From: Rhodomicrobium vannielii ATCC 17100
GTDB lineage: Bacteria; Pseudomonadota; Alphaproteobacteria; Rhizobiales; Rhodomicrobiaceae
Reading direction: 5' to 3'
DNA: 64,000 nt
NCBI RefSeq assembly: GCF_000166055.1
Contig: NC_014664.1
Coordinates: 682,001-746,000, forward strand
A model generated the notes under the pieces. The model searched no databases, had not been told where the DNA came from, and was given only the letters and a program-made list of their open reading frames with translations. Positions 1 to 15,230 of the stretch are shown here, piece after piece; positions within the stretch are counted from its first letter, which is position 1; each line of letters begins with the position of its first letter. The translations under genes and the position numbers were made by a program.

Positions 1-2
1 CG

Positions 3-317
3 CCCTTGGGCAATCCAGCGATGAAAATGCCGATGATGGGCATGCACATGGCGATGCCGAACTGGGTCGCCACGATCCCGGGCGTGGACTCGGGCGCAAC
101 AGGCATGATGAAGGACATGATCAAGAAGAAGGGCGTCGCCTCCATCGACGAACTGCGCGACATGGCCCTCGAAGCCGAGGTCAAGATGATCGCCTGCCAG
201 ATGACGATGGACCTCTTCGAGTACAAGAAAGAGGACATGATCGAAGGAATGACGCTCGGCGGCGCGGCGACATACCTGGAGCAGGCGTTGAAGTCCGACG
301 TGAACCTGTTCGTCTAG
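3..317 (+). CDS. DsrE/DsrF/DsrH-like family protein, 5' end outside window
   Basis: The frame is open from the left edge, so the true start lies upstream. About 104 residues remain. They carry Met-rich stretches, a run ending MIKKKGVAS, the motif ACQMTMD with its cysteine, and a GGAATYLE segment near the C terminus. These are hallmarks of the DsrE/DsrF/DsrH-like peroxiredoxin-fold proteins thought to take part in sulfur relay or thiol handling. Full-length members have about 150-165 residues, so roughly a third is missing. A TusA-like gene follows 46 bases downstream on the same strand, a common pairing that supports a role in sulfur transfer. The exact substrate is not visible from the sequence. 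Confidence 0.85.
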   Translation, partial: PLGNPAMKMPMMGMHMAMPNWVATIPGVDSGATGMMKDMIKKKGVASIDELRDMALEAEVKMIACQMTMDLFEYKKEDMIEGMTLGGAATYLEQALKSDVNLFV

Positions 318-363
318 CACCGAAAAACAAAACCGACCCGCATTGCTTTCCAACGGAGGAATC

Positions 364-591
364 ATGGCCGACAAGACGCTCGACGCGAAAGGTCTCAACT
401 GTCCGCTGCCGATCTTGAGGACGAAAAAAATGCTGAACGAAGTTCCGGCTGGCGGCACGCTGGAGGTGCTCGCCACCGATCCCGGCTCCGTCGCCGATAT
501 GGCTTCCTTCTGCCGGACGACCGGAAACGAGCTTATGGAGTCGACGAAGGATGGCGACGTCTTCCGTTTCCTGATCAAGCACACGGCTTGA
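364..591 (+). CDS. tusA: TusA/SirA-family sulfurtransferase
   Basis: 75 residues from the ATG at 364, which is preceded by a strong Shine-Dalgarno CGGAGGA ending at 360; a TTG further upstream was rejected for that reason. The N-terminal motif LDAKGLNCPLPIL contains the single catalytic cysteine in the CPxP signature of TusA/SirA proteins, which accept persulfide sulfur on that residue and pass it to partner proteins. Length and the conserved LEVLATDPG strand fit the family (75-85 residues). It follows the DsrE-like gene and is probably co-transcribed with it. The physiological acceptor (tRNA thiolation, molybdenum cofactor or sulfur oxidation) cannot be decided here. Confidence 0.9.
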   Translation: MADKTLDAKGLNCPLPILRTKKMLNEVPAGGTLEVLATDPGSVADMASFCRTTGNELMESTKDGDVFRFLIKHTA

Positions 592-602
592 GCTTAAAGA
601 GG

Positions 603-634
603 GCTGGAGCCACTCCGATAAGTTCGGCTCCAGC
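603..634. terminator. Stem-loop after tusA, possible terminator
   Basis: A nine-base perfect inverted repeat, GCTGGAGCC (603-611) and GGCTCCAGC (626-634), with a 14-base loop begins 11 bases after the tusA stop. No T-run follows on the plus strand, so it may be a weak or factor-assisted terminator or an mRNA-stabilising hairpin. Confidence 0.5.
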
Positions 635-812
635 GCCAGCGTCCCGTAAGGGGCGCCACGGACGAACGAGATCTGGCGCCATCCGTTATTCCTTGCATAG
701 CTATGCCGCGCTACTCGCGTAGCATTCAACTGCCTCATTGCGCGCCACATTTTCTAACGCGCCTGCGGTCTCCAAAAAGACCCAATTATAACTACGACGC
801 GCCCATCGAGTT

Positions 813-828
813 TTGACTGATCGGTCAA
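813..828. promoter_or_regulatory. Palindromic operator candidate (TetR type)
   Basis: TTGACTGATCGGTCAA is a 16-base palindrome with one mismatched pair (T/G at positions 6 and 11). Length, symmetry and the TTGAC/GTCAA arms resemble operators bound by TetR-family dimers. It lies about 120 bases upstream of the synthase start codon, within promoter distance. No TetR gene lies in this window, so the regulator would have to be encoded elsewhere. Confidence 0.45.
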
Positions 829-912
829 GCAAATCCTGCGCCAACTGATATGTCTCAGGAGGCTACCGGAATCTCATCCACGGGCCGGATTCCTGCCATC
901 GCCGTTACTATC

Positions 913-947
913 TGTTCCTTGTCTGCAACACAAACAAGGAATACGCT
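913..947 (+). promoter_or_regulatory. Hairpin enclosing the Shine-Dalgarno site of the synthase gene
   Basis: TTCCTTGT at 915-922 is perfectly complementary to ACAAGGAA at 934-941, with an 11-base loop; one G-T and one T-A pair extend it to 913-943. The Shine-Dalgarno AAGGA (936-940) is in the 3' arm, seven bases before the ATG at 948. Folding would mask the ribosome binding site, so the structure could repress translation until melted or bound. The pairing is read directly; the regulatory role is inference. Confidence 0.55.
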
Positions 948-2216
948 ATGAGCGACCAGTTTAATCTTCACCACCAGACGCGGCTTCCGTCCGATCCCAA
1001 ATTCTTGTTCGACCGTGTCGAGTGCTACTATCGTGAGCGGCTCGATGAGACTTGGAAAGGGCGGCATCCGATGAAGGGCAGGAGCCCTGGATTGTCCGCT
1101 ATCAAGTTGCGCAGCAACGACTACTTGTGCGTTGCCGCCGACCGGCGCGTGATCGAAGCTGAGGTTCGCGCCTTGCAAGCCAGCGGTCACGGTGACTCGG
1201 TGTCCCGAACGTTCGTCCATCACGAGGCGGACGGGCTCAATGCCTTCGAACACCGCGTGGCGCGTCTGATGGGTTCGGAAGCCGCTGTGCTGGCCAACTC
1301 AGGCTATTGCGCCAATGTCGGTCTGATCCAGGCGATTTGCCGCCCCGACACGCCTGTGTTCCTCGACATGAAGGCGCATTTGTCGCTGTGGGAAGGCGTG
1401 AAGAGCGCGGGCGCCAAGCCCACACCCTTCCGCCACAACGATGCCGAGCATCTCGATCGCTTGATCGGGAAGGTTGGCCCCGGCGTGATCGTGGTCGATG
1501 CCCTCTACAGCATCGACGGCAACATCGCCGCGCTGGAGGACTTCGTCGAGGTTGCCGAGCGGCGCGGCTGCGCGCTGGTCGTCGACGAGACGCATTCCTT
1601 CGGCACGCACGGCCCCGATGGCGCCGGTCTTGTCGCAGCCCTTGGCCTCAGCCATCGCGTGCACTTCCGCACCGTCGGCCTGTCCAAGGCCGTGGCGAGC
1701 CGCGGCGGCCTGGTCATATGCTCGCAGCGCAACGCCGAGTTCCTGCGCTACGAATCGCTGCCCGTGATCTTCAGCACTCAGGTGCTCGCTCATGAGGTCG
1801 CGGGGTATAACGCTGCTCTCGATATTTTCGCCAACGAACCGTCGCGGCAGCGTCTCTTGCACAGCAATCATCGTTACCTGACCAATGGCCTCGATGAGCT
1901 GGGCTACAATGTCGACTTGTCGAGGTCGCAGATCATCGCCCTTGAGGCGGGCGAGATTCTCGAGACAATCAAGCTGCGCGATGCGCTTGAGAAGCGCGAT
2001 GTCTTCGGCGCGATCTTCCTGCCGCCGGCGACGCCTGCGAAGCGCTGCATCATCCGCTTCACGGTGAATTGCGGGTTGACCAGGGACGAGCTTGATCGCG
2101 TGCTGGCGGTATGCGCGGAGATCAGGGACGAAGTCGGTCTGGCATCGTGGCCGTCGACGCGGCGCCGGGGCCGTCAGGCCCGCGTGGCTAGCCTCCCGAC
2201 CGCGCTTGCGGCATAG
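948..2216 (+). CDS. lqsA: Alpha-hydroxyketone autoinducer synthase (CqsA/LqsA-like)
   Basis: 422 residues, a fold-type I PLP enzyme of the alpha-oxoamine synthase family. Visible landmarks: SRTFVHHEADGLNAFE, the cofactor Asp/His region VVDETHSFGTHGP, and the PLP lysine in GLSKAVASRGG (Lys247). CqsA of Vibrio cholerae and LqsA of Legionella make alpha-hydroxyketone signals from acyl-CoA and an amino acid. The motif LYSIDGNIAALED and the THSFGTHGPDGAG sequence fit CqsA better than 5-aminolevulinate synthase, KBL or BioF, and the neighbours are the matching kinase and regulator. It is about 30 residues longer than V. cholerae CqsA, with an Arg-rich C-terminal tail that overlaps the convergent kinase gene by 29 bases. 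Start: ATG with AAGGA seven bases upstream. The exact product chain length is unknown. Confidence 0.82.
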   Translation: MSDQFNLHHQTRLPSDPKFLFDRVECYYRERLDETWKGRHPMKGRSPGLSAIKLRSNDYLCVAADRRVIEAEVRALQASGHGDSVSRTFVHHEADGLNAFEHRVARLMGSEAAVLANSGYCANVGLIQAICRPDTPVFLDMKAHLSLWEGVKSAGAKPTPFRHNDAEHLDRLIGKVGPGVIVVDALYSIDGNIAALEDFVEVAERRGCALVVDETHSFGTHGPDGAGLVAALGLSHRVHFRTVGLSKAVASRGGLVICSQRNAEFLRYESLPVIFSTQVLAHEVAGYNAALDIFANEPSRQRLLHSNHRYLTNGLDELGYNVDLSRSQIIALEAGEILETIKLRDALEKRDVFGAIFLPPATPAKRCIIRFTVNCGLTRDELDRVLAVCAEIRDEVGLASWPSTRRRGRQARVASLPTALAA

Positions 2217-3582
2217 CGGGGCTTGACAAGGCGGACGCGGCGTCAGCCGCGTCCAACCTTTTTGCCTCGACGATGGGGAGCCTGATTTCGAAGCTCGTGC
2301 CTTTGCCAAGCTCCGATGAGCAGGAGATGCTGCCGTCGAAACCTTCGACGACGCGCCTGCAAAAAGACAGACCGATGCCGGTGCCGCCGGTTGCTGCGTG
2401 GCCTGTCACGAACGGTACGAAGATATAGGGGAGTGTCGCCGCCTCAAGGCCGGGGCCGGTGTCGGTGATCGAGAGTATGTGTCCGGCCGATGTCGTTCTC
2501 GCCTCTATGAGGATCTGCCCGTCTCCTCCAGCGACCGCGCGGAGGGCGTTCTTGACGAGGTTGAAAATGACGTGAACCATCAGGATCTCCACGCCCTGAT
2601 AGATGAAGTTGTCGCAGACGCGAACCTCGATCAACTCGCGTTCGCCGGGGCGGAATTGAAAGCGGCCGACCGCTTCATCGATCGTGCTGGCGATGGCATA
2701 AAACTTCATGCGCTCTTGAGAATAGCTCTCATCCCTGAGGTTGGTGAGGAGCATATCGATGACAAGGTTTGCTGCGACAGCGTGCTTATCGACGCGTTGG
2801 AGAGCGCCACTCAGCGCAACCATATCGCGATCGCTCAGGGTGTGATCGTAGCCGCGCTCCTGCGCCCACTGGTTGACCGCGCTCAACCGTTCGAGGTGGT
2901 CTCTTGTCTTGTTGGCGTCGAGCCGGATACCAAGCAAGGGCGTGCGCATCTCATGCGCGATACTGCTCGCGAGAGCGCGCGCTGCAATGAGCTTGTCACG
3001 CGCGATGACGCGCTCGCTGTGCGAGAGGAAAACCACCGCACTCAGGATGAAGCCGTAAACGGGGAGGAGAAGCAAAAATTCGGTCGGGACATCGATCTGC
3101 CCGGACAGCAGCCAATAGCCGATAAGCGCGATCAGCACCCCCAATATCGAGACCAGGACGCCGTTGGCCAGATCGTAGAGCAGAAACGTGAACAGGATTA
3201 TCGCGGTCTCTGACATCAGCCAGACGCTATTCTCCCCGTTCATGAGTAACATCAGCGTAAAAAACACCGGTCCTACGAACAGGAGGGACCAATAACAATA
3301 GGGCAAGTAATACGTTATCAGGTGTCTTGGCCAATAGCGCCTAAGCGCCACCGGGATGCAGAGCGCGGTTCCCACAACCCTTAACGTCAAGTTCTCGTAA
3401 GGTTGCGGAAAAACGTATGCCCAGATGAAATAATAAAAGGGGAAAGCAATAAGGGCGAGCAGCCCTGTGGCTGGCAGCTTGTATGCTGAGACAGCGTGGT
3501 ACTCAACATACGCACCGCGAAGACGGCGCACAAGATTGCGCAACCGGGAGAGCAAGGCCCGCCCCATCAGACGTTGGGTCAT
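2188..3582 (-). CDS. lqsS: Membrane sensor histidine kinase of the AHK system (CqsS/LqsS-like)
   Basis: 464 residues from the ATG at 3582 (a GTG at 3597 is also possible). The N-terminal 190 residues contain about six hydrophobic helices with almost no periplasmic loop, as in the CqsS/LqsS sensing domain. The HisKA helix has SSIAHEMRTPL with the phospho-acceptor His210. The ATPase domain shows the N box NLVKNALRAV, G1 box DTGPGL and G2 box GGTGIGLSFC. There is no receiver at the C terminus, unlike V. cholerae CqsS but like Legionella LqsS, which signals to a separate LqsR. It lies between the synthase (convergent, 29-base overlap) and the response regulator (divergent). Membrane location and AHK as ligand are inferred from family and context. 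Confidence 0.78.
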   Translation of the reverse strand: MTQRLMGRALLSRLRNLVRRLRGAYVEYHAVSAYKLPATGLLALIAFPFYYFIWAYVFPQPYENLTLRVVGTALCIPVALRRYWPRHLITYYLPYCYWSLLFVGPVFFTLMLLMNGENSVWLMSETAIILFTFLLYDLANGVLVSILGVLIALIGYWLLSGQIDVPTEFLLLLPVYGFILSAVVFLSHSERVIARDKLIAARALASSIAHEMRTPLLGIRLDANKTRDHLERLSAVNQWAQERGYDHTLSDRDMVALSGALQRVDKHAVAANLVIDMLLTNLRDESYSQERMKFYAIASTIDEAVGRFQFRPGERELIEVRVCDNFIYQGVEILMVHVIFNLVKNALRAVAGGDGQILIEARTTSAGHILSITDTGPGLEAATLPYIFVPFVTGHAATGGTGIGLSFCRRVVEGFDGSISCSSELGKGTSFEIRLPIVEAKRLDAADAASALSSPAMPQARSGG

Positions 3583-3710
3583 AATGCCAAGTCGCACGAC
3601 TACGAACTTTCACTTGCACGATATCATGTGCGGAAATTATAAAGTTTTCGCTTAAGCTGCCCGAAGTGCCTTACGATCGCCTTTGGCGTCCGAGGATCAG
3701 GACTGTACTT

Positions 3711-4733
3711 ATGAGCACATTGCTGCCGCTCTACCACCCGACGACATGCCTCGTCATCGACGACGATCGGCTCTATCTCGACAGCTTCGACTACAATTAT
3801 GCCGATGTCACGCTGTGCGCAACCGAGCATCGCCCGGAGCAAGCCATCCAGCGCCTCCTGAAAGATGCGGAGCGGACCGGCTTGCGGATCGAAGAAGCTA
3901 ATCGTGCGCCGGTTGATGAAGGGGAGGCGGCCGATCCCGTCATTCGCCTGCCAGCATCGCGCATCGCCGCAATGGCCCGAGATCCCGCCCGTTTTTCGCG
4001 CGTTTCGGTGGTCGTGGTCGATTTCGCAATGCCGAGCATGACCGGCGTCGAACTCCTCCAGAAGATCAAGCACCTGCCGGTCAAAAAGGTGCTCCTGACC
4101 GGCAAAACGGGGGATTCGACGGCCGTCGCCGCCTTCAACGAGGGCCTGATCAACCTGTTTCTGGTCAAGCAAGACCCAGACCTGCCCGAAAAGCTGAGGC
4201 GGATCATACGAGAGTTGCAGGTCGCTTATTTCAGGGACATCACCGCGCCGTTGGAACCCATCGCAAAGCTTGAGGACACGGCGTTCCTCGACGATCCAGG
4301 GATTGCGAGTTGGTACCATACCCTCGCCGAGCGCATCGGAGCGGTCGAGCACTATCTCCTGCCGTCACCGCCGGGCCTGATGCTGGTCGACGAGGCGGGG
4401 CAGGTCACCATCGCGTGGATCAACAACCCGGATCGGATGCGCGCTCAACTCGAGATTGCGATCGATATCGGCGCTCCCGCGGCGCTTTTGAAAGAGCTAC
4501 GCGCCGGCAACACGATCCTCACCTGCCCGACGCCGACCGGGTTCTACGAAGAGCAGTACGAGCTCGATTGGCGAAAGTACGCTTTGCCGTGCGAGGAAAT
4601 CAGGGGGAACACGCTCTGGAAAGTCGCGATCCAGCGCGACCGGGCACTTTGCTTGTCGCGGGCACTTGGCTTGTCGGCAGTCTCGTTGCGCCAATACCGC
4701 CAGTCGCAGGCCGGGGGCGTCTGCGAAATCTAG
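3711..4733 (+). CDS. lqsR: Response regulator of the AHK system (LqsR-like)
   Basis: 340 residues from the ATG at 3711, with AGGA eight bases upstream (an in-frame GTG lies at 3666). The N terminus has a receiver domain: acidic pair in VIDDDRLYLDSF, phospho-acceptor in VVVDFAMPSMTG (Asp104) and conserved Lys in VLLTGKTG. About 45 extra residues lie between the acidic pair and the acceptor, so the Asp is near 104 instead of about 54. Legionella LqsR has the same elongated layout, with, as I recall, Asp108. The C-terminal 150 residues match no common output domain I recognise and contain no visible helix-turn-helix. Its output may therefore be protein-protein or another non-DNA mechanism. It is divergent from the kinase, sharing a control region of about 130 bases. 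Confidence 0.75.
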   Translation: MSTLLPLYHPTTCLVIDDDRLYLDSFDYNYADVTLCATEHRPEQAIQRLLKDAERTGLRIEEANRAPVDEGEAADPVIRLPASRIAAMARDPARFSRVSVVVVDFAMPSMTGVELLQKIKHLPVKKVLLTGKTGDSTAVAAFNEGLINLFLVKQDPDLPEKLRRIIRELQVAYFRDITAPLEPIAKLEDTAFLDDPGIASWYHTLAERIGAVEHYLLPSPPGLMLVDEAGQVTIAWINNPDRMRAQLEIAIDIGAPAALLKELRAGNTILTCPTPTGFYEEQYELDWRKYALPCEEIRGNTLWKVAIQRDRALCLSRALGLSAVSLRQYRQSQAGGVCEI

Positions 4734-5053
4734 CAATGTCGAGTCGTGGCGCAACGCCATCGTTATCTCGGCGCATCCTCCATCTGGAACGATCACACTG
4801 CCTGCGCGTCCGGCGTCTTCGCTGGTGAACGAGATCGACCCGCGCCGTATCTCGGGCAGCAGGATGCCTGCTTGCTGGGCCGTCTCGCGTCGTCCAGTCC
4901 CTTTTTCAAGCTGCCAGAGCAGGTGGCATCTTGCATGCCTTGTCGAGCGCAGGCGGTCGCCCATCCACAGTCCATGGCGTCGAGCCGATCGAGCCGGGCT
5001 GGATGCGTGGCCGCCCCGACTTCGGACAAACACACTTACGACAGTTCTTGTGA
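4734..5053. other. Gene-free stretch after the response regulator
   Basis: No reading frame here has recognisable motifs. A minus-strand open frame crosses it but lacks any family signature and has no convincing start. It precedes a decayed kinase and may be degraded DNA of the same former gene. Confidence 0.4.
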
Positions 5054-5547
5054 TTTCAAGGGAAACCGCGGTACGCCACCACCCTCGCCGAGTGCGGTGA
5101 CGCTTTTCAGGCCCGCATTCTGGCGCTCTCAAAGACGCACAATCTGCGCACCGAGAGCCATTGGGAGGGCGCTTCCTTGCGGCGCATCCTCGCTGCGGAG
5201 CTTTCGCCCTATGGTCGCGCGGGTAATGAGCCGCGTTTCGCGCTCGACGGGGAGACCGTGAACCTGTCTCCGGGGCAGGTCCTTATGCTCGGGATGGCGG
5301 TTCAAGAACTGACGACGAATGCCGCGAAGTACGGTGCTCTTTCTACCCAGTCCGGCAGGGTCGATGTCACTGGAGCGTCGACAGGAACGGGGCCGAGGAG
5401 GTCGCGCGAATTCGATGGGTTGAGAGTGGTTGACCGACCGTGAGTCTGCTAACGCGGCAGAGTTTCGGGTCTCATCTGATTGAACGCGGGCTCTCGTTCG
5501 AAACGGGGAGCGAAGTTCGCCTGGAGTTCGCGCCCGCGGGTCTTTGA
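5054..5547 (+). pseudogene. Decayed HWE-family histidine kinase, C-terminal part
   Basis: One frame encodes FQARILALSKTHNL, then WEGASL, then LSPGQVLMLGMAVQELTTNAAKYGALS, the typical C-terminal half of HWE/HisKA_2 kinases (N box with AVQELTTNAAKYGAL). At about 5369-5371 one base is missing: the expected Thr-Trp is read as ACTGG, and the frame moves. The new frame continues WSVDRNGAEEVARIRWVESG, meets an in-frame TGA at 5431-5433 where glycine is expected, then resumes as SFGSHLIERGLSFETGSEV and ends at 5547. The dimerisation and sensory part is missing upstream. The gene is therefore inactivated by one frameshift, one nonsense codon and a 5' loss. It may once have belonged to the neighbouring signalling cluster. 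Confidence 0.8.
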
Positions 5548-5795
5548 TGCGCGATCACGATGCCGCTCAAGCGCGCGGATAACTGATGGGGAGCGAACCG
5601 CAAAATGAGCCGGAGCAGGGTTGCGAGCGTGGCTTTTCTCTCCGGCTCCTTCCCTGGGGGATGAGGCGGGATGACGTCGCTGGCGTCACGCCTGCGCGCG
5701 GGCAAAGCTGGTGCGGGTAGCCGCGGGCTTCGGTGTTGAGGCTGTCCAGCGCTCCGGGAGCGATGAGGCGTTTCCGTAATCTTGCGGCGAGAATT

Positions 5796-5885
5796 TGGCG
5801 GAGGGGGTGGGATTCGAACCCACGGTACGGTTGCCCGCACGCCGGTTTTCAAGACCGGTCTATTAAACCACTCTAGCACCCCTCC
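5796..5885 (-). tRNA. tRNA-Ser (UGA anticodon)
   Basis: The minus strand folds as a class II tRNA: acceptor GGAGGGG/CCCCTCC, discriminator G and an encoded CCA at 5798-5796. The anticodon loop CTTGAAA gives anticodon TGA (5851-5849). A long variable arm and a T arm with GGTTCGAATCC are present. The long variable arm and UGA anticodon identify serine. Length is 90 bases with CCA. Confidence 0.97.
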
Positions 5886-6146
5886 ACTGGATGCTGGCCG
5901 CTCGCTTGCCGAGCGCTGGAACGCTTTGCGCCGGGATCGACAGACACACAGCGCCACGCCGCTCGCCGGTTCACACCGAAGCACGCCAGACTTTCCACGG
6001 CGATGGATAACAAATGCGCCCTCGCGGAGCAACTGCGATGGCGATGTGTCGGGAGCTTCTTCGCGTTCTTCGGCGCAAAGAAGCTCCGTCTCCTGTTTCG
6101 CATGCGGAAGCGAGATGCGTCCCGCGTGCGCTCGTTTCCGAAGTGG

Positions 6147-8192
6147 CTACTTCAGCGACGCATAGGTATTGGCGTCGACGTTGAACGTCAGGCCGCCGAA
6201 GACCGAGAGGCCCGGCGTGTTGTAGCGGCGCACCGTCTCATACTTCTCGTCGAGCAGGTTTTCGCCGCGCACATAGGCGGTAAGGCCCGGACGGATGTCG
6301 TAGCTGAGCTTCGCGTTGAGCAGCACGTAATCTTCGAGCTGGTAATTGCTCGAATCCACGGTGTCGAGCGCGAAACGCGTGTTGACGTTCGCCTTGACGG
6401 TGTCGAACAGCACCGCGTCCGCGCCGAGCGTGATGCTGTTGCGCGGGATGCGGACGAGGCGCGAGCCATCCTCCGCCCTTGCATCGACATAGGTGTAGCC
6501 CGCCGACAGCGTGAGCCACGGCGTGACCATCGCCGCGCCGGAAAGCTCCACGCCCTCGCGATGTGTCGTGCCGGGGATCTGCTGGTAGACCCACTTCCAG
6601 TTGGCGTCATAACCACCGCCAATCTCATTCGTAGTGTCGACCTGGAAATACGTACCGCTTAAACGATAGCGCTTGTTGTCGAACCACTGATCGAAACCGA
6701 CGTCCCAGCTTTCACTTTCCTCGGGCTTAAGACCAGTGTTGCCGGAAACCCACTCGTTGTTTGCGTAGAGTTCATAAAGGCTCGGCGCGCGGAAGCCCGT
6801 GCCAGTGCTGGCGCGCAGTTTTGTTTGCGTAGGTTCATAGAAGTACGCGCCGGTGAAGCGGTACGTCTGAAAGTCACCGAAGGTGCTGTGCTCATCGTTG
6901 CGGCCGCCACCGGTGATCGTCAACCCCTTCAGCGGCTCCACCGAAAGTTGAGCGAAGACACCCGTCAGATCGATTCCGTGCTGGGAGTAAGCGCCGGTCT
7001 CAGCGGTTTCTTCCATGTAGTCGGCACCCGCTGTCACGGTCGCCCATTTCGTGATTTTCGCCGTGCCGAGATAGTCCACCTTCCAGCGGTCGCCGGTATA
7101 GGAGTCGTTGACGGCTGAACCACTGGACCATCCCCACTGATCGCGATCAAGTTTCATGCCTTGAATCGAAACCGTGTTGACGAAAGCGCCATCGAAAAGC
7201 TTGACCTCGGTGCCTACACGGCCGGACTGCTGGCTGTTTACACCGCGCGCGCCTGGCCATCCGTCTGGCGCCAGCCCCCAGGAATCGTAGGTGCTGTCGT
7301 AGTTATGCTTTTCCTCCAGAGCGCGCGCAGCAAAGAAGACTTTCACATCGTTGGAAAGCTTGTATTCGCCTGTGCCGCTGAAGGTCAGGTTGCGGTAACC
7401 GTCGTCTTCATTTCCAATCGCCAGAGCGGAATAGCCATCGCTGCGCACACTTTGCACGGTGAAGCGCGCATAACCGCGATCCGTGCCGTAGGCCGCGCTC
7501 GCCGTGCCGCGCTGGGTGTTGTAGGAGCCTGTCTCGCCGGAAGCCGTCATCGAAGCGCCGAGCACGGGGCGCGCCGTGTCGATTGAAATCACACCGCCGA
7601 TCGCCTGACCGCCGTAGAGCAGGCTTTGCGAGCCTTTCAACACCTCGATGCGCTGGACATCGGTGGCGAGGATAGTTTCAAGCGCCGTCGTGACCTGCGT
7701 CCCGGTGGGATCGGATACATCCAGCCCGTCGACCTGCACCTTCACATATTTAGAAGCCGCGCCCCAAATGAAATAAGATGTTGTGCTGGCCGGCCCCGAC
7801 TGCGCCACAGAGACGCCCGGCACCTGCGCGAGATAGTCCTGCACATAGGTGCGCGACTGCGCCTCGATCTGGTCGCGCGTGATGACCGTGACCGCGGAGC
7901 CGACCTTGGTAATGTCGGTGGGCACGCGGTTCGCGGAATAGATCACATCGCGTGACGCCTCGCCCGGCACCGCCTCTGCGGGCTCGGCCTGCCCTTGCGC
8001 AACGGCCGGGGCTTCCTTCTTTTTCTTCGGCGTTGCGGCTTTCTTCTTCTGCTTGTCGGCCTCGTCCTTCTTGACGACGACGGGCGGCAGGGTGTCCGAA
8101 CGAGCGGCGGTTTGGGCCTGTGCATTCGCGGCGAGCGCGACAAGGCTGACGAGCGCGACGCAGGAGCGCGCGCGCGGATAGGAAACGGGCAT
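6147..8192 (-). CDS. TonB-dependent outer membrane receptor, BtuB-like
   Basis: 681 residues from the ATG at 8192. A signal peptide ends at ANAQAQ. It is followed by an unusual Lys-rich linker of about 35 residues, then a plug domain (VTVITRDQIEAQS, LAQVPGVSV, RIEVLKGSQSLLYGGQAIGGVISI) and a 22-strand-type barrel with LRASTGTGFRAPSLYELY and a terminal strand ending in polar residues. The plug resembles the cobalamin receptor BtuB. A cobalamin riboswitch directly upstream makes vitamin B12 or a corrinoid the likely ligand. The protein sits in the outer membrane and uses TonB energy. No btuCDF genes lie nearby. An earlier in-frame start at 8264 is less likely because it would precede the signal peptide. 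Confidence 0.88.
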   Translation of the reverse strand: MPVSYPRARSCVALVSLVALAANAQAQTAARSDTLPPVVVKKDEADKQKKKAATPKKKKEAPAVAQGQAEPAEAVPGEASRDVIYSANRVPTDITKVGSAVTVITRDQIEAQSRTYVQDYLAQVPGVSVAQSGPASTTSYFIWGAASKYVKVQVDGLDVSDPTGTQVTTALETILATDVQRIEVLKGSQSLLYGGQAIGGVISIDTARPVLGASMTASGETGSYNTQRGTASAAYGTDRGYARFTVQSVRSDGYSALAIGNEDDGYRNLTFSGTGEYKLSNDVKVFFAARALEEKHNYDSTYDSWGLAPDGWPGARGVNSQQSGRVGTEVKLFDGAFVNTVSIQGMKLDRDQWGWSSGSAVNDSYTGDRWKVDYLGTAKITKWATVTAGADYMEETAETGAYSQHGIDLTGVFAQLSVEPLKGLTITGGGRNDEHSTFGDFQTYRFTGAYFYEPTQTKLRASTGTGFRAPSLYELYANNEWVSGNTGLKPEESESWDVGFDQWFDNKRYRLSGTYFQVDTTNEIGGGYDANWKWVYQQIPGTTHREGVELSGAAMVTPWLTLSAGYTYVDARAEDGSRLVRIPRNSITLGADAVLFDTVKANVNTRFALDTVDSSNYQLEDYVLLNAKLSYDIRPGLTAYVRGENLLDEKYETVRRYNTPGLSVFGGLTFNVDANTYASLK

Positions 8193-8311
8193 TTTGGCCT
8201 CGCGATAACGTGACACGTCACCACGAACCAAAGTCAGGAACGCCGCGTATTGAGCGGATTCCAAGCCCCATCAGGACACCCCGCCCGACGTGTTCGCGCG
8301 TGACCACGGCT

Positions 8312-8470
8312 GATGGCAGGTCTCCTGGCTCGCGGGTCCAAGCTCCACGCCGCCTTCCCGGTTGCCCAGTGGCCTTTGGCGCTTCGCTCACCGCTTACAG
8401 TTGCGGGGGCAGCCGCGGATTGAGGACACCGTCCCTCACCGCGTTCCCTATTATCCTCACGTGAGGACCA
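8312..8470 (-). promoter_or_regulatory. Cobalamin (B12) riboswitch
   Basis: On the minus strand the order is AATAGGGAACGCGGTG, CCGCGGCTGCCCCCGCAACTG, the B12 box (8373-8352, beginning GCCACTGG and ending GGGAAGGC) and GCGAGCCAGGAGACC. These are the conserved blocks of the adenosylcobalamin riboswitch, in the right order and spacing, about 120 bases ahead of the receptor start. It is expected to turn the receptor off when cobalamin is plentiful. Confidence 0.96.
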
Positions 8471-8675
8471 TCGCCTCATGGCATAGCTTGCGCGAAGCTT
8501 GCGTCGCAACCACGCAAATGCCGCAATGCGGCAAGTCTCGCGCAAGCTGTGGCGCGACGGCAACATCCCGCCATCGCGGGCCCCGACGCCGTTAACCATG
8601 CCCGTGCACGCATGATTAACGCTGCCCTGCTATTTTTAAGAAAATCGTTTGGTTGCGTGGAGGGAGGCGCGGGGC

Positions 8676-8999
8676 ATGACATCGGCCGATATCATGCGTT
8701 TTGTGATCATCATCAGCCTCGGCGTGCTTGCGTTCATTACCTTTCTGGTGGCGGGCACACTGATCGGGCTGATGTGGCTCGAAAGCTGGTCCTGCGGGCA
8801 TTGCAAGCAATATCCCGCCGGGATTTACATCCTTGGCGTGCTGGGCCTGTTGCTGCTCGGCTCGATGGGGCAAGAGGCAGGCGAAGCGCCGGAAACCTGG
8901 CGCAACTGGGTCAAGGCCCATATCCAGACCCTGATTATTCTGGCGCTGATCCTCGTCACATTCATGCTCGTCGTGAACTGGTGGTGGTGGTTCGGATAG
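8676..8999 (+). CDS. Small membrane protein with a CGHC motif
   Basis: 107 residues from the ATG at 8676, preceded by GGGAGG about nine bases upstream. There are three hydrophobic segments (about residues 8-34, 48-63 and 84-105) and a Trp-rich C terminus. The loop after the first helix holds [11 protein letters not shown] (Cys40, Cys43), a CxxC with the same CGHC spacing as protein disulfide isomerases, but without a thioredoxin fold. It could bind metal or be redox active; neither can be shown here. I do not recognise the family. It is followed by rph on the same strand after 278 bases and is probably not in the same operon. Confidence 0.6.
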
Positions 9000-9277
9000 G
9001 CACGGCCACGAGGACACGGATCACGCCCGATCCCGGTGCGGCTCGTTTCCGACGCGCAGTGACGGTGGCGGTCTGCGGCATTTGGCGAAGGATCAAAGCG
9101 ACGCGGGGGCGGCCGAAAGCCGTTGATACCCGAAAACCGCTGGCCTACTGTCCGCTACGGCGTTCACGAGGACGCCCAAAATTCACATCTGCGCTGGATC
9201 GACCGTCCGGCTGCGGCAAGGTGAGCATTATAAAAACGGGCGTGGCTCAGCTTCGCGCCCGAGATGAGAGAAATTTC

Positions 9278-9991
9278 ATGCGCCCCTCGAAACGGCAGGC
9301 CGGCGACCTTCGCCCTGTGAGCTTCCAACGCGCCTTTTCGCATCACGCGGAAGGATCGTGCCTCATCAAGTTCGGCAATACGCATGTGCTATGCACGGCG
9401 AGCCTTGAAGATCGCGTGCCGCCGTGGCTGAAGGGGCAGGGACGCGGCTGGATCACGGCCGAATACGGGATGCTACCGCGCGCCACCTCCGACCGCACGC
9501 GCCGCGAGGCGACGACCGGCCATCAGTCCGGCCGCAGCCAGGAAATTCAGCGGCTGATCGGACGGTCGCTCCGCGCCGTGGTCGATCTTCAGGCGCTCGG
9601 CGAACGCCAGATCATGGTCGACTGCGATGTGTTGCAGGCCGATGGCGGGACGCGCACGGCCTCGATCACCGGGGCATGGGTCGCGCTGCATGATTGCTTC
9701 CAGTGGATGCGCGCGCGCGACATGCTTCGCGGCGAACCCATGAAGGACAACGTCGCCGCCATTTCCTGCGGCATTTACAAGGGCGAAGCGGTTCTCGACC
9801 TCGATTATCCCGAGGATTCGGATGCCGAGGCGGACGCGAATTTCGTGTTCACCGGCAAGGGCCAGATCGTCGAAATTCAGGCTACGGCGGAGAAGGGCGC
9901 GTTCTCCGAGGAACGCATGGCCGAATTGACGGCGCTCGCGAAGAAGGGCATCGCCGAACTCGTGAATTTGCAGAAGCTTACGGTTCTTTGA
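9278..9991 (+). CDS. rph: Ribonuclease PH
   Basis: 237 residues, the normal length for RNase PH, a phosphate-dependent 3'-5' exoribonuclease that trims tRNA 3' ends. Landmarks: N-terminal [36 protein letters not shown], the RNA-binding Arg region [41 protein letters not shown], and the [17 protein letters not shown] acidic motif. The start is the ATG at 9278; the frame remains open upstream, but no family members are that long. It converges with pyk, with a palindromic repeat between them. Confidence 0.96.
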
Positions 9992-10144
9992 CATTGCCAT
10001 GCCCGCTGCCTGACCGGCGGCGGGCATGCAAAGTCTGAGCATGGCGGATCGCTTTGCGCGGACTTCCGCGCAATCAGAAGCCACGATCGCAGGATCGGAA
10101 TAGCTGATCCTGTCTGCTTTCGACGGCGCATAAAGCCCGCAGTT

Positions 10145-10175
10145 CAGAGCGTTTCTGCTTAATTGAAACGCTCTG
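10145..10175. repeat. Palindromic intergenic repeat, likely bidirectional terminator
   Basis: CAGAGCGTTTC (10145-10155) and GAAACGCTCTG (10165-10175) form a perfect 11-base-pair stem with a nine-base loop. It sits between the convergent ends of rph and pyk. Similar AGAGCGTTTC palindromes recur between genes in Rhizobiales genomes. The position suggests termination for both genes, although T-runs are short. Confidence 0.7.
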
Positions 10176-10243
10176 CATGTTCGTTTCGCATTGCCAGACG
10201 GAATACCGGTTTTTGTCGCGCGGCTTCGGTGACCCGCCGCGCC

Positions 10244-11677
10244 TTAGTGTGGCTTGCCGCTGTCCTCGCCGATGGTGAAGATGCGCAGCATGTTCGTGCT
10301 TCCCGGGCGCTTGAACGGCACACCCGCGCAGACGAGGACGCGGTCGCCGTCGTCAGCATAACCGGAAGCGCGCGCGACCTCCTCGGCCCCGCGCACCATC
10401 TCACCCGTATTCGCGGGGTCGGATGTCTGCACGCAATGCAAGCCCCAGACGAGGTTGAGCCGCCGTGCTGTCTCGATCACCGGTGTCAGCACAACGATGG
10501 GCTGGGCGGGCCGCTGTCGCGCAACGCGAAGGCCGGTCTTGCCGGTCGCCGTGTAACAGAAAATCGCCTTCAGCTTCAACGTCTCAGCGATGGATGCGGC
10601 GGCGGCGCTGATCGCGTCGGCGGCGGTCTTGTCCGAAGGCGTCCCGCGAAAATGCAGGATGCTCTCGTAATTGACATCCTTTTCCACTTCGCGCGCGACG
10701 CGGTCCATGGTGGCAACGGCCTCGACCGGATAGGCGCCGGTCGCTGACTCGGCGGACAGCATCACCGCATCCGCGCCCTCGAAAACGGCGGTCGCAACGT
10801 CGGAGACCTCGGCGCGCGTCGGAACTGGGGATGACGTCATGCTTTCTAGCATCTGCGTCGCAACCACCACCGGCTTGCCGAGATCGCGGCCGGCTCGCAG
10901 AAGCTGCTTCTGCAATCCCGGCACCTGCTCAAGCGGCATCTCGACGCCGAGATCGCCGCGCGCGACCATCACGCCGTCGCTTTCGCGCAGGATGTCGTCG
11001 ATTTCGGCGATGGCGGAGCGGCGCTCGATCTTCGCCATGATCGCGGCGCGATCGCCCACGATGGCGCGCACGTCGCGCACATCATGCACGCGCTGCACGA
11101 AGGAAATGGCGATCCAGTCCACGCCCGCTTCAAGGGCAGCTTCGCAGTCCAGGCGGTCTTTCGGCGTCATCGAGGCGAGCGGCAGGATGGCATCGGGTAG
11201 ATTCACGCCCTTGCGGCTCGATAGCACGCCGGCGGTAATGGCTTCCGCGACGATGCGGCCGGGGCGCGCGTCGAGAACGCGCATGTGAAGCTTGCCATCG
11301 TCGATGAGGAGCGTGTGTCCAGGTTCGGCCGCTGCGTAGATTTCCGGGTGAAGAAGCCCGACGCGATCGATAGTGCCCGGCGTGTGGTTCGCATCGAAGA
11401 TGATGGTCTGACCACGTTCGAGCTGGATGCTGCCTTCCGCGATGGAGCTGATGCGAAGCTTCGGCCCCTGAAGGTCGGCGAGGATGGCGATGGGGCCGTA
11501 TTTGCTTTCGAGGTCGCGCAGCGCGGCGATGTAGGTGCGCATGTCGTCGTGGCTCGAATGGCTCATATTGATGCGGAAGACGTCCGCACCAGCCACGACA
11601 AGGCGTTCGAGTTGTTCAGGGGTGCTCGTCGAAGGCCCGAGCGTTGCTATAATCTTGACGCGGCGTTTTCTTTTCAT
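10244..11677 (-). CDS. pyk: Pyruvate kinase
   Basis: 477 residues, full length. It converts phosphoenolpyruvate and ADP to pyruvate and ATP. Visible motifs: KIIATLGPST at the N terminus, FRINMSHSS, LADLQGPKLR, the metal/substrate region MAKIERRSAI (catalytic Lys), VARGDLGVEMP, KPVVVATQMLESM and the DAVMLSAESATGAYP loop. The C-terminal domain carries FCYTATGKTGLRVARQRP. It is the last gene of a three-gene minus-strand operon after glycerate 2-kinase and a DUF1036 protein; its ATG overlaps the preceding stop by four bases (ATGA), which implies translational coupling. Confidence 0.97.
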   Translation of the reverse strand: MKRKRRVKIIATLGPSTSTPEQLERLVVAGADVFRINMSHSSHDDMRTYIAALRDLESKYGPIAILADLQGPKLRISSIAEGSIQLERGQTIIFDANHTPGTIDRVGLLHPEIYAAAEPGHTLLIDDGKLHMRVLDARPGRIVAEAITAGVLSSRKGVNLPDAILPLASMTPKDRLDCEAALEAGVDWIAISFVQRVHDVRDVRAIVGDRAAIMAKIERRSAIAEIDDILRESDGVMVARGDLGVEMPLEQVPGLQKQLLRAGRDLGKPVVVATQMLESMTSSPVPTRAEVSDVATAVFEGADAVMLSAESATGAYPVEAVATMDRVAREVEKDVNYESILHFRGTPSDKTAADAISAAAASIAETLKLKAIFCYTATGKTGLRVARQRPAQPIVVLTPVIETARRLNLVWGLHCVQTSDPANTGEMVRGAEEVARASGYADDGDRVLVCAGVPFKRPGSTNMLRIFTIGEDSGKPH

Positions 11678-12219
11678 CGGCGGCGTTGTCCCGGCGCGGA
11701 GGCTGCTGCGGCTTGCGCGGGAGCATCGGCAGCGGGCGGTGCGCCGCTCGCAGCCGTCGGCGCTGCGGGCGCCGTTTCGGATTGATCGGTGAGTTTCACC
11801 GTCCAGTCCGTCTGCTCCTGCGTATCGACTTCAAAGAACCCGCTTTTCTTGAAGCCGCGCCCGTCGCAATTATCGATGCCCTTGATAGTGAACTCAACGT
11901 CATTGGTGCACATGGCGATCGCGCCGCCCCACTCGCCGCCCTTGTCGTAGTCGAAGGCGTAGACGTAGTAGAAGCGCGCGCGCAGCTTGTCCTGAATGAG
12001 AAGGGCGCAGGACTGACTGTCGACATTCCACCAGCCTTCGCTGACCCAGCCGTCCTTGTCCTTGTAGCCGATGGCGACGCCGATGCGGCTCGCAGTGCTG
12101 TTGCAAAGCTTGAGCTCGGCGTTCGCCGGAGCGGGCAGGGCGAGCCCGAGGCAGAAAACGCCCGCCAAGGCTATCGCACGTGCCAGCCGTGGCGTTATGG
12201 GAAGCTGTTGCAGGATCAT
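11674..12219 (-). CDS. DUF1036 exported protein
   Basis: 181 residues. An N-terminal signal sequence (hydrophobic stretch about 13-28, cleavage after PANA) leads into a DUF1036 domain: LKLCNSTASRIGVAIGYKD, WWNVDSQSC, YYVYAFDYDKGGEWGG and the Cys pair around CTNDVEFTIKGIDNC. The C-terminal 40 residues are Ala/Pro/Gln-rich low complexity and may be a disordered tail. It lies between glycerate kinase and pyk, overlapping the latter by four bases. The function of DUF1036 is unknown; its linkage to pyk is recurrent in alphaproteobacteria. The protein should act in the periplasm, so a metabolic link with the cytoplasmic kinases is not obvious. Confidence 0.88.
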   Translation of the reverse strand: MILQQLPITPRLARAIALAGVFCLGLALPAPANAELKLCNSTASRIGVAIGYKDKDGWVSEGWWNVDSQSCALLIQDKLRARFYYVYAFDYDKGGEWGGAIAMCTNDVEFTIKGIDNCDGRGFKKSGFFEVDTQEQTDWTVKLTDQSETAPAAPTAASGAPPAADAPAQAAAASAPGQRRR

Positions 12220-12257
12220 CCGTGGGTTCCAGGAATCACGTGAGTCGCTGGCTCACA

Positions 12258-13562
12258 CTAATCTCTGATTGAGCTGTCGACAACAATAGCCCTGAAGTCA
12301 TTCACATTTGTTCCCGTGGGGCCGCATACGACGAGATCGTTCGTGAGCCGGAAGAAGCCAGTGGCGTCGTTATTGGCGAGAAATGTGGCTGGAAGGAGAT
12401 TGAGCGCCGCCGCGCGCCGGGCCGTGCCGGGATCGACGATGGCTCCCGCGGGGTCGTTCCCGCAGTCGCCGGTCCCGCCGTCGATGCCGTCCGTGTCGCC
12501 CGCGAACGCGGCGATGCCGGGCTGACCGTTGAGGGCCGCGGCAAGCGCGAGCGCGTATTCCTGATTCGGGCCGCCTCGGCCGTTTCCACGTACAGTCACG
12601 GTGAGTTCGCCACCCGAAAGGATTACGACGCGCCGACCGTCTGCGAGGCAGCGGCGGGCGAGGCGGGCGTGCATCTCGGCCACGTCGCGGGCTTCGCCTT
12701 CGAGCGAATCGCCCAACATGATGACCTCGTAGCCGAGGCCGCGCGCCAGTTCTCCCGCCGCGTGCAGTGAGTCGCGGCCGGTGGCGACGAGTTCGTAACG
12801 CGCGTTGGCGAAAATCGCGTGCCCCGGCTTTGGGGTTTCGTTCACGGGATCGTTCAGCGCCTCGATCACCGAACGCGGCGGTTCAATGCCGTATTTCGCA
12901 AGAATGCGCCGCGCATCGGCGAGCGTCGTGGTGTCGGGGCAGGTGAGGCCCGAAGCGATGGTCTCAGGCTCGTCGCCGGGCACATCCGAAATGGCGAGCG
13001 TGACGAGGATCGCCGAAGGCGAAGCGCAGGCGGCGAGGCGTCCACCCTTGATGCGCGAGATGTGTTTTCTGACGCAGTTGATTTCGCTGATGCGTGCGCC
13101 GCATTTGAGAAGCGTGCGAGTGAGATCCTGCTTCTCGGCGAGCGTAATTTTCCCGGCGGGCGCAACGAGGAGCGCCGACGCGCCGCCCGAGATCAGCGTG
13201 AGGATGAGGTCGCCCGCCTTGGCGGAGTGCGCGGCCTTGATGGCCTCGGCGGCGGCGAGCACGCTGCTCTCGTCAGGGATCGGGTGCGCCGCCTCGATGA
13301 GCTTCAATTTCTTGAGCGGTTCCGAGTTCTCGCCATGCCGCGTGATGGCGACACCTGTCAGTGTGTGAGACGCGCAGGTTCGCGAGAAATGGTCTTCGGC
13401 GATGCGTGCCATTCCAGCCGCCGCCTTGCCGCAGGCGATGATGACGATCTTGCCGTCCGTCGGGCATTCGGGGAAGTGACGCGGCAGACAGCGCCCCGGC
13501 TGCGCGACAGCGACGGCCGTATCGAATAGCGCATAAAGGAAGCGTCTGGCGTTGTGTGACAC
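12258..13562 (-). CDS. Glycerate 2-kinase (MOFRL/TtuD type)
   Basis: 434 residues of the class II glycerate kinase family, once annotated as hydroxypyruvate reductase TtuD. Features: IIACGKAAAGMARIAEDHF near the N terminus, TLISGGASALLVAPAG, RKHISRIKGGRLA, and the C-terminal MOFRL domain with LSGGELTVTVRGNGRGGPNQEYALALA and FAGDTDGIDG. It phosphorylates D-glycerate to 2-phosphoglycerate. Enolase and the pyruvate kinase encoded downstream could then yield pyruvate, so the operon forms a short route from glycerate. The next gene begins 38 bases after its stop. The start at 13562 gives a natural N terminus. Confidence 0.92.
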   Translation of the reverse strand: MSHNARRFLYALFDTAVAVAQPGRCLPRHFPECPTDGKIVIIACGKAAAGMARIAEDHFSRTCASHTLTGVAITRHGENSEPLKKLKLIEAAHPIPDESSVLAAAEAIKAAHSAKAGDLILTLISGGASALLVAPAGKITLAEKQDLTRTLLKCGARISEINCVRKHISRIKGGRLAACASPSAILVTLAISDVPGDEPETIASGLTCPDTTTLADARRILAKYGIEPPRSVIEALNDPVNETPKPGHAIFANARYELVATGRDSLHAAGELARGLGYEVIMLGDSLEGEARDVAEMHARLARRCLADGRRVVILSGGELTVTVRGNGRGGPNQEYALALAAALNGQPGIAAFAGDTDGIDGGTGDCGNDPAGAIVDPGTARRAAALNLLPATFLANNDATGFFRLTNDLVVCGPTGTNVNDFRAIVVDSSIRD

Positions 13563-13735
13563 GTCGCAAACTGGGGGTTAATGGTCGATGGTCGCCCAGC
13601 GCACGTTACTGCTTCGACCGCGATGGTCCAATTGGCTTTAAGTCTGTCGCCCAAAGTAGCGGGGTGCCATGCGATTATTGCATGGCTCGCGTTGCCGGCC
13701 GGATGGGCCTTGCTGCCCCGTTTACGCCCCGCTTT

Positions 13736-14605
13736 TCAGAAGTCGAGGCCGATATCGAGCGCCTTCACCGAATGCGTGAGCGCGCCAACCGATATCATGT
13801 CCACGCCCGTTTCCGCGATGGCGCGCACCGTCACGAGCCGCACCCCGCCCGACGCCTCGCAGAGGATGCCAGGCTTCGCGGTTTTGGCGCGCGCGACGGC
13901 GCTCTTGAGCTCGGGCACGGCCATGTTGTCGAGAAGCACAGCGTCGACATCATGCCGAAGGGCCTCTTCGAGCTGGGTCAGCGTATCCACCTCGACCTCG
14001 ATCTTCACCATGTGGCCGTTGGCGGCCCGCGCGAGATCGATTGCCGCCGAAACGTCGCCCGCCGCCGCGATGTGGTTGTCCTTGATGAGTACCGCATCGA
14101 AGAGGCCAAAACGGTGATTGTATCCGCCGCCCGCGCGCACGGCGTATTTCTCGAACGCGCGAAGGCCGGGCGTCGTCTTCCGCGTGCAGACGATGCGGGC
14201 GTGCGTGCCGTGAACCGCCTCCACGAAATGGCGCGTGGCGGTGGCGACGCCGGAGAGATGCTGCACGAGGTTCAGCGCGACGCGTTCGGCCGAGAGTATG
14301 GCGCGCGTGCTGCCCGATACGCGGGCGATGACGCTTCCGGCATGGGCGGTTTCGCCGTCGCGAAGCTCCGCCGCGAAGGATATGCCGGGATCGAGCGCGC
14401 GAAACGCCGCCTCGGCGAGCGGAAGCCCCGCGATGCAGCCGTCTTCGCGAAGAGCGAGCACGGCCTCGGTGACATCATCCGGCGCGATGATGGCGTTGGT
14501 CGTGATGTCGCCCGCGAGGCCGAGATCCTCCGCCAGCGCATCCCTGATGAGAGCCGCGACGAGATGATGGGGAAATTGAAGGTTCGAGGGGGCGTGTCCC
14601 GTCAT
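13736..14605 (-). CDS. nadC: Nicotinate-nucleotide pyrophosphorylase (quinolinate PRTase)
   Basis: 289 residues from the ATG at 14605; the frame extends 45 codons further upstream, but that part is Arg/Pro-rich and not conserved in the family. It makes nicotinate mononucleotide from quinolinate and PRPP in de novo NAD synthesis. Motifs: AEDLGLAGDITTNAI, ERVALNLVQHLSGVATAT, the PRPP/quinolinate site CTRKTTPGLRAFEKYAVRAGG, LIKDNHI, VEVEVDTLTQLEEAL and LCEASGGVRL. nadA and nadB are not adjacent. A Nudix-type NAD regulator lies about 6 kb away (20758). Confidence 0.95.
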   Translation of the reverse strand: MTGHAPSNLQFPHHLVAALIRDALAEDLGLAGDITTNAIIAPDDVTEAVLALREDGCIAGLPLAEAAFRALDPGISFAAELRDGETAHAGSVIARVSGSTRAILSAERVALNLVQHLSGVATATRHFVEAVHGTHARIVCTRKTTPGLRAFEKYAVRAGGGYNHRFGLFDAVLIKDNHIAAAGDVSAAIDLARAANGHMVKIEVEVDTLTQLEEALRHDVDAVLLDNMAVPELKSAVARAKTAKPGILCEASGGVRLVTVRAIAETGVDMISVGALTHSVKALDIGLDF

Positions 14606-14705
14606 GTCTTTTGCCAAGCTCGCATTCCAGAAATGAACGCGGAGCTTAACAAGGAACGCCCGGGGTGCAAACGTCTTCGCGCGATGAGCGCAGGGTTTAT
14701 GCTGC

Positions 14706-15230
14706 TCAGGCGATCTGCACCACGGGCGCGAGCTTCGCAAGCTTGTCGAGCCAGCGCTGAACCCGCGCCTTGTTCACGCCGAAGTCGCCGCGACCGACGA
14801 GCGAGCGGCTGTAAATCGCGATGGTGGACCGGCCATCCTCGACATCGACGAAGCGCACTTCGATGGTATCGGGGAAACGCCAGAAGGCGGAGCGTTGCAC
14901 ATAGCGCGCGCTGAGTTTGTTTTCGTCGACATCGACGAGTTCGAGGTTCGGCTCGGAAGCGACGGCCGTCCTGAACGCCTTCCTCAGTTCATGCGCGCTC
15001 ACCGCGAAGACTGGCGGCTTGATATCGCTGCGAGCCTTGCATGCGCCAGGCGGGCAGGCGAGCGCGTCGTTCGGCGTCTCGCGGCGGCTCAGCGTTTCGA
15101 AATCGACCGGCCCCTGATCGGCGGGACCGGCGAGCGACCAGAGCCTCTCGGGACCGACGATGAAGAATGCGGCGATGATCGCGATGGGGATCGCAACCAA
15201 AGCAATGGCGACGACGGATCGGGCTCTCAT
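14706..15230 (-). CDS. DUF1499 domain membrane-anchored protein
   Basis: 174 residues from the ATG at 15230. One N-terminal hydrophobic helix (about residues 5-24) acts as an anchor. The rest matches DUF1499: PNDALACPPGACKARSD, then PPVFAVSAHELRKAF, ARYVQRSAFWRFPDTIEVRFVD and SRSLVGRGDFGVNKARVQRWL. DUF1499 proteins are widespread in alphaproteobacteria, with unknown role. The Cys pair in ACPPGAC is conserved. It precedes nadC on the same strand by 100 bases; co-transcription is possible but not shown. Confidence 0.85.
   Translation of the reverse strand: MRARSVVAIALVAIPIAIIAAFFIVGPERLWSLAGPADQGPVDFETLSRRETPNDALACPPGACKARSDIKPPVFAVSAHELRKAFRTAVASEPNLELVDVDENKLSARYVQRSAFWRFPDTIEVRFVDVEDGRSTIAIYSRSLVGRGDFGVNKARVQRWLDKLAKLAPVVQIA

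Follow-up and report, generated by a model that had tools for sequence, protein, structure and literature searches.

The 64,000-nucleotide window analysed here, positions 682001-746000 of the single-contig genome of Rhodomicrobium vannielii ATCC 17100 (4,014,469 bases), contains a three-gene locus that most probably encodes a complete alpha-hydroxyketone (AHK) quorum-sensing module of the CqsA/LqsA - CqsS/LqsS - LqsR kind (estimated probability approximately 0.86, judged from sequence). The genes for a synthase (+), a kinase (-) and a response regulator (+) fill positions 948-4733 (Table 1). All three reading frames are open and are located where an initial annotation of this DNA had placed them, and its interpretation of the locus as an AHK module is supported. 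The locus is a known system, correctly recognized in a host that has drawn little attention.

The 3' ends of the synthase and kinase genes overlap by 29 bp (2188-2216). The regulator gene is divergent and begins 113 bp past the kinase start. Its start was assigned to the ATG at 3711; the mechanically predicted open reading frame (ORF) opens earlier, at a GTG at 3666.

Table 1 Features of the AHK locus and its surroundings in the R. vannielii window (aa, amino acids; PLP, pyridoxal phosphate)
Feature	Position	Strand	Characteristics and evidence
Alpha-hydroxyketone (CqsA/LqsA-type) autoinducer synthase, predicted	948..2216	+	422 aa, ATG start, PLP lysine K247; NF005526, 3hqt match, tree
CqsS/LqsS-type membrane histidine kinase, predicted	2188..3597	-	469 aa, GTG start, H215, without receiver; tblastn, 38-kinase alignment, Pfam, hydropathy
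LqsR-family response regulator, predicted	3711..4733	+	340 aa, D104, elongated receiver and C-terminal output domain; 6sy9 matches
Divergent intergenic region, kinase/regulator	3598..3710	.	113 bp, conserved blocks; no sigma-70 consensus found
Inverted repeat / predicted RNA hairpin	913..943	+	stem 913-922 with 934-943, 10 bp, covers the synthase Shine-Dalgarno sequence
16-bp palindrome upstream of the synthase	813..828	.	single exact genome copy; not conserved, function doubtful

Synthase, kinase and regulator

The synthase scored 484.1 bits against NF005526, the NCBIfam model of AHK-type autoinducer synthases (curated cut-off 428). The 20 other families listed, including BioF, KBL, ALAS (5-aminolevulinate synthase) and SPT, all remained under their own cut-offs (bits/cut-off: BioF 246/426, KBL 183/460, ALAS 155/339). 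The best PDB match is the CAI-1 autoinducer synthase 3hqt (E 9.1e-86); the CAI-1 autoinducer synthase structures are presumably those of Vibrio cholerae CqsA. K247 aligns with the PLP lysine of CqsA, which we take to be numbered K236, and the description of the protein as a CqsA-like PLP enzyme with Lys247 was confirmed.

A branch with 100/100 support divides the 61 rows of a tree into 50 CqsA-like rows and 11 other alpha-oxoamine synthases. The window synthase falls on the CqsA side and not with ALAS or KBL, a grouping that the initial annotation had named as contrary evidence; since the outgroup rows carry neither KBL nor ALAS labels, the separation from these two families comes from the family cut-off scores. 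The four Rhodomicrobium synthases share a common group (100/100), which joins two members of the same order (97/91). The closest named relative is Rhodomicrobium udaipurense JA643, whose synthase is 98% identical.

The N-terminal sensor of the kinase is CqsS-like, and its gene is located beside the synthase gene. Residues 1-200 were used as tblastn query (E <= 1e-3), and 39 of 50 other synthase loci, one of them the repeat L101, contained a match to this sensor half (38 of 48 without repeats). For the kinases encoded next to cqsA in three Vibrio loci, the E values were 2e-14, 2e-14 and 2e-16. According to a figure legend of PMC3376566, V. cholerae CqsS recognizes the C3 group of its ligand through W104 and S107 and the head group through F162. 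W126, S129 and F183 of the Rhodomicrobium kinase occupy these positions in an alignment of 38 kinases, which also contains a conserved PQ.YE motif. The offset of five between the V. cholerae and V. campbellii numberings was derived from the equivalence of C170 and F175, and the W, S and F letters agree with it. Both the Vibrio homology and the retained equivalents of W104, S107 and F162 speak against a sensing domain unrelated to CqsS/LqsS, another objection foreseen in the initial annotation.

The H-box histidine of the kinase is His215. Pfam assigned a HATPase domain, a HisKA domain below threshold and no receiver, in agreement with the kinase as first described. In a crude hydropathy scan, the part before residue 200 shows ten hydrophobic stretches that overlap; these can be grouped into about six segments, and the six helices claimed earlier correspond to this grouping. 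With the kinase as query, 23 other kinase matches were found in the genome, none of which starts before residue 196, so that no second copy of the sensor half was found.

Residues 7-295 of the 340-residue regulator match PDB entry 6sy9 (E 8.3e-33), and a profile of 24 regulator sequences matches positions 4-335 of 339 of the same entry (E 4.5e-99). The entry is titled only 'Response regulator'; we take it to be Legionella LqsR. By these alignments the protein is a nearly full-length LqsR homologue, and it is the sole match to itself in the genome. Its predicted phospho-acceptor is Asp104, as first described, and Pfam recognizes a receiver only in its second half (residues 91-154), which is consistent with the elongated receiver layout proposed for it.

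Gene order and distribution

Gene order was recorded for 51 loci including the window, of which 49 remained after two repeats (L101, L109) were dropped. Here, A denotes the synthase, S a kinase with CqsS-like sensor, R the regulator, k a kinase core only, and arrowheads give the direction. The most frequent order is A> <R <S (18 loci), followed by A> <S (10), A> alone (6), A> <S R> (5), <k A> (3), S> R> A> (2) and <S A> (2), while A> <R <k, <S A> <R and A> S> occur once each; these counts are not independent, since many rows are from closely related Paraburkholderia and some contigs end near the gene. The A> <S R> loci are those of the four Rhodomicrobium genomes and of one other genome of the order (L102), and the divergent regulator marks this clade. 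The initial annotation had considered the arrangement as not seen in the Legionella cluster, which is right, but synthase and kinase are convergent in all three Vibrio loci as well.

Synthases above the family cut-off were found in 8 of the 385 alphaproteobacterial genomes drawn (R. vannielii included), corresponding to 4 of 277 genera, and R. vannielii itself has one. As judged from bits and identity, the synthase is present in four of five Rhodomicrobium genomes and in two of 53 other genomes of the order (588 and 379 bits); the three other genomes of the family gave distant matches only.

The surroundings of the module in the window differ from those in three other Rhodomicrobium loci. When window positions 1-15000 were compared with these loci (blastn, E <= 1e-5), similarity was confined to 625-4734, 860-4728 and 819-4658. 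The module thus behaves as a block, and the synteny break at its edges suggests that the three genes relocate together. In Rhodomicrobium sp. Az07 (L015:8943-10804) and L102 (L102:11174-13046, genome G025), seemingly the same two genes are encoded downstream of the module, as seen by eye from their N-terminal residues. We take them to be a CitE-like lyase and a pyridoxal kinase, and this common pair hints at an ancestral module location. A search of viral contigs gave six pattern matches, with no relative among them.

The intergenic region between kinase and regulator is conserved, with 88% mean column identity across 3570-3740 in four loci. A scan of 600-4900 for sigma-70 promoters found none, compared with 1.2 expected by chance.

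Proposed mechanism and alternatives

By extension from characterized relatives, as far as these are described in PMC3376566, PMC3285556 and PMC5289986, the synthase would condense an acyl-CoA with S-adenosylmethionine to an aminoenone, which would be converted to a 3-hydroxyalkan-4-one. In the absence of signal, the kinase would autophosphorylate at H215 and pass the phosphate straight to D104, whereupon the regulator would dimerize. Binding of the signal to the membrane domain would inhibit the kinase, so that the regulator would be dephosphorylated at high cell density. The most speculative steps are that a hairpin over the ribosome-binding site might throttle synthase translation and that the output might bear on the swarmer, multicellular-array and exospore life cycle.

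Several points weigh against a complete AHK module. The pairing of kinase and regulator is suggested by adjacency. With this kinase as query, no second CqsS-like kinase (a counterpart of LqsT) was found in the genome. The fifth Rhodomicrobium genome (G002, 88% complete) has a distant synthase match only. The output domain of LqsR is reported to resemble a diguanylate cyclase whose motif is degenerate, and activity was not detected in vitro (PMC10653808). A LuxI-type acyl-homoserine-lactone synthase is encoded elsewhere in the genome (G000:C1:2916636-2917154, minus strand; 101.5 bits, cut-off 24), and an AHK would therefore be one of two candidate acyl-origin density signals; LuxS was not found in the genome. 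Finally, three of the nine acyl-pocket residues of CqsA named in PMC3285556 are changed (V32 to M, F257 to Y, C346 to L), the six others being identical (H30, F79, I263, F264, P348, A349).

The changed pocket also bears on the identity of the product. The synthase could use another acyl-CoA or amino-acid partner and produce a different alpha-oxoamine that is sensed by the kinase, which would still be signalling, though not by an AHK. The fold family carries out several reactions, and the BioF, KBL, ALAS and SPT models do match, below their cut-offs. The residue for chain length in the kinase, C170 in V. cholerae and F175 in V. harveyi according to PMC3285556, corresponds to L191 and is thus a Leu in Rhodomicrobium. 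Yet only the curated AHK-synthase cut-off is passed among the family models, and the kinase retains W126 and S129 at the positions corresponding to those that recognize the C3 group, which makes a non-AHK product improbable.

Alternatively, the divergent regulator might obey another kinase, just as its orthologue PhcX joined the Phc system of Ralstonia. It stands on its own strand at the Rhodomicrobium locus, and PhcX/LqsR is reported to have switched neighbours (PMC10653808). In the tree group of the window, however, synthase, kinase and regulator occur together in all six loci (five times as A> <S R> and, in L103, as <S A> <R), and the trio was kept together though the window flanks are not common to the three Rhodomicrobium loci compared. 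An unpaired regulator is hence considered very unlikely, and a paired AHK module is the preferred interpretation.

A conserved predicted hairpin over the synthase ribosome-binding site

Upstream of the synthase start lies TGTTCCTTGTCT-N9-ACAAGGAA (913-941), with the Shine-Dalgarno sequence in the 3' arm. The predicted RNA fold of 890-975 has a free energy of -19.4 kcal/mol (z -3.16), and none of 200 shuffled sequences was equally stable. In the genome, the pattern TTCCTTGT-N7..15-ACAAGGAA has a single occurrence (backward control 0). Among the four Rhodomicrobium loci, which amount to about three independent lineages because of the close relationship between R. vannielii and R. udaipurense, 18 of 20 stem columns are invariant (10 of 10 in the 5' arm), versus 60 of 236 other upstream columns, as counted on the stem folded from the window alone. 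A run of 10 invariant columns arose in 2 of 20000 shuffles of the other columns. Invariant runs of at least 5 columns are found only at the hairpin, where they are 12 and 8 long. All 40 pair cells of the stem are standard. This conservation suggests translational control of the synthase, and the putative hairpin is a new detail of an otherwise known system.

Other observations call for caution. Eight of ten pairs never vary and two vary on one side only; with no two-sided change among them, the pattern does not prove that the arms pair. As a ribosome-binding site, the 3' arm would be conserved in any case. Among 42 mechanically predicted ORF starts in the window, that of the synthase ranks only fourth lowest in access, although second in longest stem, and occluded start regions are thus not rare in the window. 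The sequence could instead be an operator for a dimeric regulator, as conservation alone also fits a DNA operator. We therefore regard as tentative, and rather doubtful, the idea that the hairpin hides the ribosome-binding site and, when opened by a small RNA, a protein, temperature or another condition, ties AHK output to the swarmer, array and exospore life cycle.

The idea that AHK synthases generally have such a hairpin was rejected. Of 48 synthase leaders folded, with start codons picked mechanically, the four from Rhodomicrobium rank 1, 2, 5 and 6 for lowest Shine-Dalgarno access, and mean access is at least 0.28 in 41 of the 44 others. Control by CsrA was rejected as well. The 3' arm contains ACAAGGA, the CsrA core motif, and no CsrA match was found in the genome (0 of 1), the same model being positive in 3 of 14 control genomes. 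The initial annotation had set the beginning of the locus at 813, the first base of the palindrome TTGACTGATCGGTCAA (813-828). This was dismissed as a conserved operator: its exact copy in the genome is a lone one, but two substitutions break the copy of R. udaipurense.

Other synthase loci and neighbouring sequences

Some further loci of the survey differ in their composition. In an alphaproteobacterium (L106:6939-10514, G340:C86), a single frame of 1191 aa combines an MMPL-family (RND-type) exporter with a C-terminal AHK synthase. The best of two exporter stretches covers residues 59-391, and the synthase covers residues 823-1157 with 502 bits against NF005526, the best match of the alphaproteobacterial survey of 385 genomes. 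A second synthase ORF, whose N-terminus matches a transposase domain, is located directly upstream, and an AcrB-like pump further upstream. A synthase fused to a putative exporter would be unusual.

In two alphaproteobacterial loci (L104:6598-7980 and L045:3035-4450), a CqsA-like synthase lies beside a histidine kinase whose N-terminal half has no CqsS-like tblastn match. Both N-terminal halves read WFIP...GPPFGA, possibly representing a second sensor class for the same kind of signal. In L044 and L107, a kinase-core match alone is found beside the synthase. On plasmid pTM3 of Tistrella mobilis (L096) and in L108, neither a CqsS-like kinase nor an LqsR match was found within about 5 kb of the CqsA-like synthase; a GntR/aminotransferase fusion, which we take to be of the MocR type, is located nearby in L096. 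Past the regulator, window positions 5100-5550 resemble a degraded histidine kinase with in-frame stop codons (HATPase_c_2, 17.6 bits, below the cut-off of 27.4).

Previous reports and context

The novelty implied by the initial annotation is absent, since a synthase of R. vannielii ATCC 17100 (YP_004010985) was listed in a CqsA/JqsA/LqsA tree in 2013 (PMC3566124). As the genome has one synthase above the cut-off, this entry appears to be the window synthase. The same paper states that the synthase adjoins a kinase in all carriers. A 2012 review described AHK use as seemingly limited to gammaproteobacteria of aquatic habitats (PMC3376566), and no alphaproteobacterium appears in the distribution section of a review from 2017 (PMC5289986). 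In a 2023 paper, LqsR orthologues are reported from 310 genomes, including 16 of alphaproteobacteria, and lqs clusters from the Alpha-, Beta- and Gammaproteobacteria; the main text of that paper contains no word beginning with 'Rhodo' (PMC10653808). In the open-licence literature, no functional work on the R. vannielii module was found, nor any paper with both 'Rhodomicrobium' and 'alpha-hydroxyketone', a search that overlooks PMC3566124, where the name is written 'R. vannielii'.

R. vannielii is described as alternating between swarmers, multicellular arrays and exospores and as genetically tractable (strain DSM 166; PMC10259793). A link of the module to this life cycle is only inferred. Most work on AHK signalling concerns Vibrio and Legionella, and a complete module in a multicellular phototroph that is genetically tractable and not known to be a pathogen would make the role of AHKs in bacterial development testable.

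Comparison with known systems

The Lqs system of Legionella pneumophila comprises the same three protein families (LqsA, LqsS, LqsR). Both regulators are elongated, with Asp108 in Legionella LqsR (PMC3376566) and Asp104 at the equivalent position in Rhodomicrobium. The gene order differs: lqsA-lqsR-hdeD-lqsS in Legionella compared with A> <S R> and no intervening gene, and hence no hdeD, in Rhodomicrobium, where, unlike in Legionella, neither a second CqsS-like kinase nor a CsrA match was found in the genome.

The CqsA/CqsS systems of Vibrio resemble the Rhodomicrobium locus in the convergent synthase and kinase genes and in the conserved head-group sensing residues. The Vibrio kinases are longer (ORFs of 681-691 aa versus 469 aa) and presumably hybrid kinases that feed LuxU/LuxO. 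No LqsR-like match was found in the 5-kb flanks of the Vibrio loci, whereas Rhodomicrobium has a separate regulator.

A further resemblance is to Lqs-type clusters such as those of Paraburkholderia, Alcanivorax and Hydrogenophaga, where synthase, kinase and regulator are adjacent as in Rhodomicrobium. In the most frequent order of the loci scanned, A> <R <S, regulator and kinase share one strand, whereas the Rhodomicrobium regulator is divergent. Janthinobacterium, which was not among the scanned loci, is described as having the trio JqsA/JqsS/JqsR likewise adjacent (PMC3566124).

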